NCBI GenBank assembly: GCA_003820635.1
Contig: RPOS01000122.1
Span: 1 to 9,018, forward strand
DNA from: Verrucomicrobiaceae bacterium
GTDB taxonomy: Bacteria; Verrucomicrobiota; Verrucomicrobiae; Verrucomicrobiales; Akkermansiaceae
Reading direction: 5' to 3'
Length of the DNA stretch: 9,018 nt
How positions within the stretch are numbered: position 1 is the first letter of the stretch; each line of letters opens with the position of its first letter. This document shows, piece after piece, positions 1,484 to 3,268 of this stretch. The notes under the pieces were generated by a model, which was given only the letters and a program-made list of their open reading frames with translations, ran no database searches and was not told the origin of the DNA. A program made the translations under genes and the position numbers.

Positions 1484-3268
1484 GTGCCTGCCGTCACCAA
1501 CATTTCCACCTATCGCTTTGCCGCACTCACGGGTCTCAAGGAGCTGCGGGAGGGGCTGCAGGCCTCGTGCAAGGCGTGGGGCTTGAAAGGCACCATCCTG
1601 CTGAGCCCCGAGGGCATCAATCTGTTCGTGGCGGGAGCGGCGGAGTCGATCGACCGGCTGCTGGCCCGGCTGAGGTCGATTCCCGGGCTGGAGGATCTCA
1701 CGCCCAAGGTGAGCCTGAGCGAGGCGCAGCCGTTCAACCGGATGTTGGTGCGGCTGAAGAAGGAAATCATCTCCTTCGGCGTGGAGGCGGTGCGGCCGGC
1801 GGATTACACCTCGCCCAAGATCGCGCCGCGGGAACTGAAGCGCTGGCTGGACGAGGGCAAGCCGGTGACGCTGCTGGACACGCGCAATGACTACGAGGTG
1901 AAGCTCGGCACGTTCAAGGGTGCCATCGATCCCGCCATCAAGACCTTCCGCGGGTTTCCGGATGCGGTGCGCAAGCTGCCGGAGCAGCTCAAGGACCAGC
2001 CGGTGGTGATGTTCTGCACCGGCGGCATCCGCTGCGAAAAGGCCGGACCGTTCATGGAAATGGAGGGTTTCCGCCAGATCTATCAGCTCGACGGCGGCAT
2101 CCTGAAATATTTCGAGGAATGCGGCGGCGACTACTACGAAGGCGATTGTTTCGTGTTCGACCAGCGGGTGGGCGTGGACCCCGCGCTGTGCGAGAGCGAT
2201 CACGCCGTGTGCTTCGCCTGCCTGGCGCCGCTGGATGCCACGGACCAGCAGGATCCGCGCTATGTGCAGGGGAAAAGCTGCCCGCATTGTTTCAAGAGCG
2301 AGCCGGAACTGCTGGCGCAGCGCATCGCCGCGCGCGAGGAATCCATCCGCCGGGTTTGCGATCCGCTGCCGGGCTCGGTGCCGCAGGAAAACCGCCGCCC
2401 GGTGAATATCCAGGCGGCGCATGACAAATGGCGCTTGCTGGATGTCCTGATCGAATTGTTTCCGCAGATCTCCGCGGCGGAGTGGGAGGCGCGCTGCGAT
2501 GCCGGGCGCTTTGTCAGCTATGGCGGTGTGGTGCGCGGCAAGGATCACGTCGTGAGGGCGGGGGAGCGGGTGCTGCAGGTTTTTCCGCCGGAGGCCGAGC
2601 CGCCGGTGGCCACGGACATCCGGGTTCTTTACGAGGACGAGGCCCTGCTGGTGGTGCACAAGCCCGCGCCGTTGCCGATGCATGCCAGCGGCCGCTTCCA
2701 CCGCAACACGCTGCAGCATTTTCTAAACCTCGCTTGCGCGCCATTTCCGCCTCGTCCGGTGCACCGGTTGGACGCCAATACCACCGGCATCGTGCTCTTT
2801 GCCCGCACCCGCCATTTCTGCCGGCTGCTGCAACGGCAGTTCATCGAGGGCGGCGTGGACAAGCGTTATCTCGTCCGCGTGGCCGGGCATCCGGAAAACG
2901 ATGTCTTCGTCTGCGAGGCTCCCATTTCGGCGGAGCCGCAAGTGCTCGGAACCCATGCGGTGGATGAGGAGGAGGGCCGGCATTCGCGCACGGAATTCAA
3001 GGTCATCGAGCGATGCGCCGATGGCACCGCGCTGCTGGAGGCGGTGCTTCAGACCGGCCGCACCAACCAGATCCGCATTCATCTCTGGCACCTGGGGCAC
3101 CCGGTCGTCGGCGATCCGGCATATCTTCCGGGCGGATTGTTAGGTGACACACAGACTCTCGATGCCGAGGCACCGCCGCTGCAGCTTCACGCATGGAAAC
3201 TTTCCTTCCGCCATCCGCGCAACGGCGAGCCGATGTGCTTTGAGACCGCTCGGCCGGACTGGGCGTGA
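1484..3268 (+). CDS. trhO: Fusion of TrhO-type tRNA U34 hydroxylase (rhodanese) and RluA-family pseudouridine synthase
   Basis: A 594-residue two-enzyme protein. Residues 1 to about 230 align with TrhO (YceA): SPEGIN (41-46) in the N-terminal acylphosphatase-like part, then a rhodanese domain (about 110-225) with active-site CTGGIRCEKA (C178, second Cys184) and DGGILKYFEECGG (203-215). TrhO hydroxylates U34 in tRNA anticodons to 5-hydroxyuridine. Next comes a Cys-rich stretch with C236, C243, C246, C266 and C269, possibly metal-binding. Residues 312-368 look like an S4 RNA-binding region, and 378-590 are an RluA catalytic domain with HRLDANTTGIVLFA (427-440, catalytic Asp430) and GRTNQIRIHL (525-534). 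The reading frame is uninterrupted across the junction. The start must be the GTG at 1484, because an in-frame TGA lies at 1472-1474 and no other start codon intervenes; no Shine-Dalgarno is evident. Both halves keep their key residues. A target in the same anticodon loop is inference; the pseudouridine site cannot be read from sequence. Confidence 0.93.
   Translation: MPAVTNISTYRFAALTGLKELREGLQASCKAWGLKGTILLSPEGINLFVAGAAESIDRLLARLRSIPGLEDLTPKVSLSEAQPFNRMLVRLKKEIISFGVEAVRPADYTSPKIAPRELKRWLDEGKPVTLLDTRNDYEVKLGTFKGAIDPAIKTFRGFPDAVRKLPEQLKDQPVVMFCTGGIRCEKAGPFMEMEGFRQIYQLDGGILKYFEECGGDYYEGDCFVFDQRVGVDPALCESDHAVCFACLAPLDATDQQDPRYVQGKSCPHCFKSEPELLAQRIAAREESIRRVCDPLPGSVPQENRRPVNIQAAHDKWRLLDVLIELFPQISAAEWEARCDAGRFVSYGGVVRGKDHVVRAGERVLQVFPPEAEPPVATDIRVLYEDEALLVVHKPAPLPMHASGRFHRNTLQHFLNLACAPFPPRPVHRLDANTTGIVLFARTRHFCRLLQRQFIEGGVDKRYLVRVAGHPENDVFVCEAPISAEPQVLGTHAVDEEEGRHSRTEFKVIERCADGTALLEAVLQTGRTNQIRIHLWHLGHPVVGDPAYLPGGLLGDTQTLDAEAPPLQLHAWKLSFRHPRNGEPMCFETARPDWA

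Follow-up and report, generated by a model that had tools for sequence, protein, structure and literature searches.

The 9,018-nucleotide contig RPOS01000122.1 of an environmental Verrucomicrobiaceae bacterium (assembly GCA_003820635.1; hereafter the window) encodes, at positions 1484–3268 of its forward strand, a protein that joins a tRNA U34 hydroxylase (TrhO) to an RluA-family pseudouridine synthase (PUS, used below for this half of the fusion). It is probably a two-enzyme protein, in which TrhO makes 5-hydroxyuridine at tRNA position 34 (ho5U34) and PUS acts at an independent RNA site, and which was fused once, its halves proving separable later. By computation, the fusion is conserved, its halves have the folds of their families, lone PUS genes nest among the fused ones, the TrhO half has been deleted in place in some relatives, and the PUS core has been lost in others. 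The gene is laid out as follows.

1484–3268, + strand: TrhO-RluA fusion gene, 594 amino acids (aa), GTG start, with Pfam and NCBIfam matches
1496–1768, + strand: UPF0176_N acylphosphatase-like domain, residues 5–95 (PF17773, 84.1 bits, cut-off 26.2)
1826–2113, + strand: rhodanese domain of TrhO, residues 115–210 (Pfam Rhodanese, above cut-off)
2015–2044, + strand: TrhO active-site loop CTGGIRCEKA, residues 178–187, a motif present in all 168 distinct fusions
2210–2290, + strand: paired CxxC motifs, CFAC (243–246) and CPHC (266–269), in the C-terminal tail of TrhO, present too in stand-alone TrhO records
2300–2356, + strand: helix connecting the two halves, residues 273–291, from model secondary structure; breakpoints of the TrhO deletions of relatives
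2357–2599, + strand: N-terminal extension of PUS (PLPGS motif from residue 294) and S4-like region (about 316–370), from TIGR00005 and the alignment to RluD 2ist
2600–3265, + strand: RluA-family catalytic domain, residues 373–594
2762–2788, + strand: catalytic Asp motif HRLDANTTG, residues 427–435 (of the 168 distinct fusions, 164 have HRLD and four HRID)
3053–3082, + strand: conserved PUS motif TGRTNQIRIH, residues 524–533 (GRT[NH]QIRxH in 168/168)

GTG 1484 is the first start codon past the preceding in-frame stop, which bears out the unbroken 594-codon frame described in an earlier sequence-only reading of this DNA; that reading had also named both families and placed their two intact active-site motifs exactly. 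Pfam recognizes PseudoU_synth_2 (388–534) above cut-off besides the two TrhO domains, and Rhodanese_C matches weakly (14.6 bits vs 26.9). The protein exceeds the NCBIfam cut-offs for TrhO (NF001133, 243.6 bits vs 170) and for NF003703 "sulfurtransferase" (338.2 vs 331), and narrowly that for the RluA subfamily TIGR00005 (196.6 vs 192.7), whose match starts at residue 314. Residues C178, T179, G181, and R183 of the CTGGIR motif are the counterparts of C200, T201, G203, and R205 of Escherichia coli TrhO, reported to be essential (PMC6599085). A positively charged sheet with K112 and R114 is also described for TrhO in that paper. Among solved structures of close fold are complexes of TrhO with tRNA (9j5o) and of RluA with RNA (2i82).

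According to the sequence-only reading, an S4-like and Cys-rich linker at residues 231–370 supplied RNA binding shared by both enzymes. This single shared linker was ruled out, since each stretch belongs to one half only: the cysteine part is the TrhO tail, where the CFAC/CPHC pair would probably form a metal site, and the S4-like part is PUS. The residues from about 290 onward are assigned to PUS because a separate PUS gene (locus L048, below) carries them too. RluD 2ist aligns over residues 300–594 with a root-mean-square deviation of 7.7, and no Pfam S4 match was found in the fusion protein up to an E value of 10.

Conservation across bacterial genomes, which the same reading had proposed to examine by a domain-architecture search, was found within the Verrucomicrobiota. 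Protein searches comprised the best 120 matches each, with scant sampling outside this phylum. Among the best 120 of 5173 protein matches, the window protein included, all 120 contain the three Pfam domains, with at least 75% identity. Full-length fusions occupy 23 of 27 genome loci, all in records titled Verrucomicrobiota, including Akkermansiaceae, Verrucomicrobiaceae, Luteolibacter, and Prosthecobacter; as for the other four, L022 ends at a contig edge, and L025–L027 match the TrhO half only. In a sample of 288 genomes across the phylum, 65 matched with an E value of at most 1e-40: the full fusion is present in 17 and TrhO only in 45, G143 has each half as its own gene, and in G252 and G255 PUS is a separate gene. 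Within one order, inferred to be Verrucomicrobiales because genome G004 is that of locus L004 (Luteolibacter pohnpeiensis), at least 143 of 386 genomes carry an uninterrupted full-length fusion; absences among the 386 are soft, since some of the genomes may be incomplete. The motifs C[TS]GG[IV]RCEK, HR[LI]D, and GRT[NH]QIRxH are retained in 168/168 distinct fusions, and the TrhO of the fusion is the sole TrhO in the 18 fusion genomes tested (18/18). An artefact of sequencing, assembly, or gene calling could have joined two genes that elsewhere stand apart, as the two overlapping genes of G143 do; the uninterrupted match in genomes from different species, at least 143 of them, refutes this, and we give it virtually no weight. 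The sequence-only reading had counted three findings against its proposal: a sequencing error, separate genes in relatives, and an RluA half without activity in orthologues. The error did not materialize, and the other two do occur, PUS being inactive by sequence in some orthologues. As for the relatives with separate genes, some derive from the fusion by deletion, and one tandem pair is probably ancestral.

That pair, in G143, consists of a trhO gene and a PUS gene on the same strand, overlapping by 17 bp (L048, 6483–5587 and 5603–4572). In the PUS tree (76 sequences, not including the proteins with a degenerate PUS), the tandem PUS is the sister of all the halves included, fused and lone alike (support 99 for the whole group and 98 for the rest, SH-aLRT only). 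Together they stand apart, with support 99, from four E. coli enzymes and 15 other RluA-type paralogues. The tree of TrhO halves places the fused halves and the degenerate forms in one group (98, again SH-aLRT only), with TrhO-only genes outside. The simplest reading is a single fusion event between adjacent genes, the place of the long-branched G143 TrhO being unsure. Lone PUS sequences are nested within the fused clade, and the supported branches require at least four changes of fused state. Approximately unbiased (AU) tests rejected both a single origin of all lone PUS genes and a single clade of fused PUS halves. These tests used 50 of the 76 sequences; 19 paralogue and E. coli sequences and seven lone ones (near-duplicates or gappy) were dropped after the PUS tree had been inspected.

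The TrhO half is missing in some relatives. Seven genomes (G631, G604, G541, G553, G581, G628, and G558) possess only a lone PUS half, 59–69% identical to that of the fusion; they came from 23 genomes chosen mostly for intermediate scores, and more may exist. No TrhO was detected with PF17773 in these seven or in G252, and G255, G544, and G464 combine a lone PUS half with a YceA-type TrhO elsewhere in the genome. For the near group, comparison of the DNA gives the direction of change: loci L093 and L092 match the fused locus L005 up to TrhO residues 9 and 6 and resume at residues 273 and 265, respectively, the stretch between being absent. L095 behaves like L093 minus the short match at the start, and L094 has different breakpoints; overall, the deletions in relatives terminate at about residues 265–283. 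L093, L095, and the protein record P0166 have the fused L005 as their closest relative (99/89), in a group that contains neither L092 nor L094. Barring a regain of the TrhO half, its in-place deletion must therefore have happened two or more times. Separately, the protein record P0211 has a partial UPF0176_N and an intact PUS half and has lost the rhodanese domain.

Conversely, two groups of proteins, known from protein records alone, keep an intact TrhO next to a PUS without its core: P0255/P0258/P0260/P0263 (support 97) and P0273/P0331/P0357 (95). The core is missing over about residues 456–570, and the HRLD motif is altered, the second group retaining the Asp; the S4-like and N-terminal PUS parts are still present. 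The supported branches of the TrhO-half tree do not require two origins, and the deletion boundaries are alike; the two groups may share one origin. These seven forms are counted without P0335, which looks frame-disturbed, and without P0294. In the latter, a single record that could be chimeric, a cyclic-nucleotide-binding domain (PF00027, 60 bits) takes the place of PUS behind TrhO and an S4-like region. Another combination was observed in genome G292, where one 529-aa frame (L052, 4482–6071, − strand) joins TrhO to a PAP2-superfamily domain (PF01569, 51.8 bits).

The distribution of other hydroxylases bears on the role of the TrhO half. Of the 386 genomes of the order, 266 have PF17773, six a close TrhP, and 90 a short U32 protein of one domain (the copy of G308 has an internal stop). 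TrhO occurs alone in 262 genomes, a U32-type enzyme alone in 92, both in four (G005, G308, G014, and G577), and neither in 28; exactly one of the two is thus present in 354/386. All eight lone-PUS genomes found without TrhO have a U32-type enzyme: TrhP in G631 and G252 (667 and 664 bits with NF011996, cut-off 534), and the short U32 protein in the other six. This near-exclusivity, together with the U32-type enzyme of all eight, is the pattern expected if the TrhO half makes ho5U34, and it fits PUS having a job apart from that. That the short U32 protein would itself be an ho5U34 enzyme is a guess. Inside this order, TrhO and the U32-type enzymes seem able to stand in for each other, contrary to the co-occurrence reported across bacteria. 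A separate observation concerns 83 genomes, mostly of about 2–3 Mb, whose short U32 protein shares 40–44% identity with that of the lone-PUS genomes: 82 of them lack TrhO.

We propose that residues 1 to about 290 most likely hydroxylate U34 of family-box tRNAs with O2, and that residues from about 291 to 594 form a PUS of its own clade with its own N-terminal S4-like region, which most likely works independently of TrhO on a separate site in rRNA or tRNA. A single joining of two neighbouring genes, arranged like the G143 pair, probably gave rise to the fusion. Where another ho5U34 enzyme is present (TrhP, the short U32 protein, or a YceA-type TrhO), the TrhO half would become dispensable and PUS would remain. 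In still other lineages it is PUS that would decay, with TrhO retained. Both catalytic activities, and the independence of the two jobs, are what we infer from the sequences. Several observations weigh against this proposal. That the fusion has lasted so long, in no fewer than 143 species, could itself be a sign of some coupling. The TrhO of the G143 tandem is a long, poorly placed branch in the TrhO-half tree, and UPF0176_N matches twice in the fusion genome G310. For G558 and G541, the short U32 protein scores 204 and 190 bits, far below the TrhP cut-off, and the corresponding proteins of the remaining four lone-PUS genomes are 67–97% identical to these two. The Fisher test of TrhO against U32-type enzymes ignores shared ancestry, and the 83 of 90 short-U32 genomes in the 40–44% class may stem from a handful of lineages. 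TrhP or the short U32 protein also occurs in three genomes with the full-length fusion (G577, G014, and G005), and the 28 genomes with neither enzyme fall outside the pattern. Across bacteria, trhP and trhO co-occur in 49/84 according to Sakai et al. (PMC6599085).

The sequence-only reading had suggested that the fusion coordinates wobble and loop modification, the TrhO half binding U34 tRNAs and passing them to PUS for isomerization of U32. For E. coli RluA to modify U32, the base must lie in a UURAA context (PMC11421799), which implies a purine at 34 and A36 and, by that rule, no U34 tRNAs in common with TrhO. The tRNA loops of one fusion genome, G266 (45 entries from 50 matches, the remainder being four duplicates and one unconfirmed by ARAGORN), show U32 with A36 in 0/13 distinct U34 anticodons. 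They show U32 in four of seven family-box U34 tRNAs (Ala-UGC, Thr-UGU, Pro-UGG, and Leu-UAG), as a shared loop would need, and the RluA rule may not apply to PUS, which appears to be a distinct subfamily. PUS does not reach the NCBIfam equivalog cut-off of RluA, the enzyme of Ψ746 and tRNA Ψ32 (NF007543, 109.1 bits vs 286), or those of RluC, RluD, and TruC, and it does not group with E. coli RluA in the tree, a weak placement given the long branches of the E. coli sequences. The tRNA- and RNA-bound structures near the two halves in fold also suit a common substrate, and the tRNA-binding part of TrcP, fused to RluA, redirected it to position 32 of tRNA-Tyr (PMC9553926). Each half nevertheless persists without the other, PUS after in-place deletion of TrhO and TrhO with a core-less PUS, so the shared-loop model is not favoured: an obligatory U34/U32 coordination is not supported, and coordination in general seems rather unlikely.

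A more elaborate version, which we regard as quite unlikely, would make the TrhO half both hydroxylase and tRNA tether: it would capture the Ala, Thr, Pro, and Leu U34 tRNAs and place U32 in the PUS half, so that ho5U34 and Ψ32 are made in one visit. In genomes that depend instead on a hydroxylase needing no O2, the tether would be deleted, PUS returning to a default rRNA or tRNA target. If true, the fusion would edit two sites of the anticodon loop while sensing O2. The C-terminal half might instead mainly aid TrhO in RNA binding or dimerization, its catalysis being secondary. Both groups that lost the PUS core retain the S4-like and N-terminal PUS parts, and in P0273/P0331/P0357 the N-terminal PUS part matches TrhO in conservation (82–87% vs 78–83%). 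AlphaFold also gives the remnant a mostly confident structure, although the alignment included intact fusions, which may have helped. In P0255/P0258/P0260/P0263, however, the remnant is less conserved than TrhO (S4-like part 37–72% vs 84–93%). The invariant PUS motifs of intact fusions, the lone PUS halves that persist without TrhO, and the record-only status of the degenerate forms also argue against a helper role, which we consider very unlikely. Independent action of two enzymes remains the reading we prefer.

Both families are known, and their fusion is genuine. The sequence-only reading knew of no description of it, and none was found in the literature searched, whose reach largely left out subscription journals and preprints. 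The fusion differs from TrhO (YceA/YbfQ/UPF0176, the oxygen-dependent tRNA U34 hydroxylase) by a complete RluA-type enzyme at its C-terminus, and from RluA, RluC, and RluD by its position in the tree and under their cut-offs. TrmR is the methyltransferase of the next step at U34. A TrhO-TrmR fusion of Phytophthora and Phaeodactylum likewise joins TrhO to another RNA-modification enzyme, the partner being TrmR and no pseudouridine synthase (PMC6599085). TrcP of Vibrio cholerae resembles the fusion in having a C-terminal RluA-like pseudouridine synthase behind an N-terminal part that is catalytic and binds tRNA, and it acts on the anticodon loop, its RluA-type domain working at position 32. It differs in that its N-terminal part is a cytidine deaminase with a helical domain, no TrhO, and in that both activities are directed at the same nucleotide, C32 (PMC9553926). 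The ho5U34 work consulted here rests on E. coli and Bacillus subtilis (PMC6599085). The fused proteins, lone PUS, core-less PUS with TrhO, and tandem genes amount to natural deletion experiments, a series that makes it possible to test directly whether joining two RNA-modifying enzymes alters the action of either. Source annotations among the best 120 of 5173 protein matches name one half only (sulfurtransferase, RluA family, or UPF0176), which conceals the second enzyme.

Nine neighbours from the window were sought in the 27 loci. The gene directly downstream alone recurs next to the fusion, at 5/27; one weak helix-turn-helix match (27% identity) was also obtained, at L019.

3279–3683, − strand: 134-aa protein directly downstream of the fusion, with a weak DUF1206 match under the cut-off

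An Rfam scan of the window gave no match, and a promoter scan gave one weak site on the + strand (1320–1349) and two on the − strand. Elsewhere in the window, a 131-aa protein (929–1324, − strand) consists of hardly more than an AraC-type DNA-binding domain (PF12833). A 153-aa protein (5077–5538, − strand), without Pfam match, starts like a signal peptide and ends in a VPEA...RRRHR tail, which we take to resemble a PEP-CTERM sorting signal.
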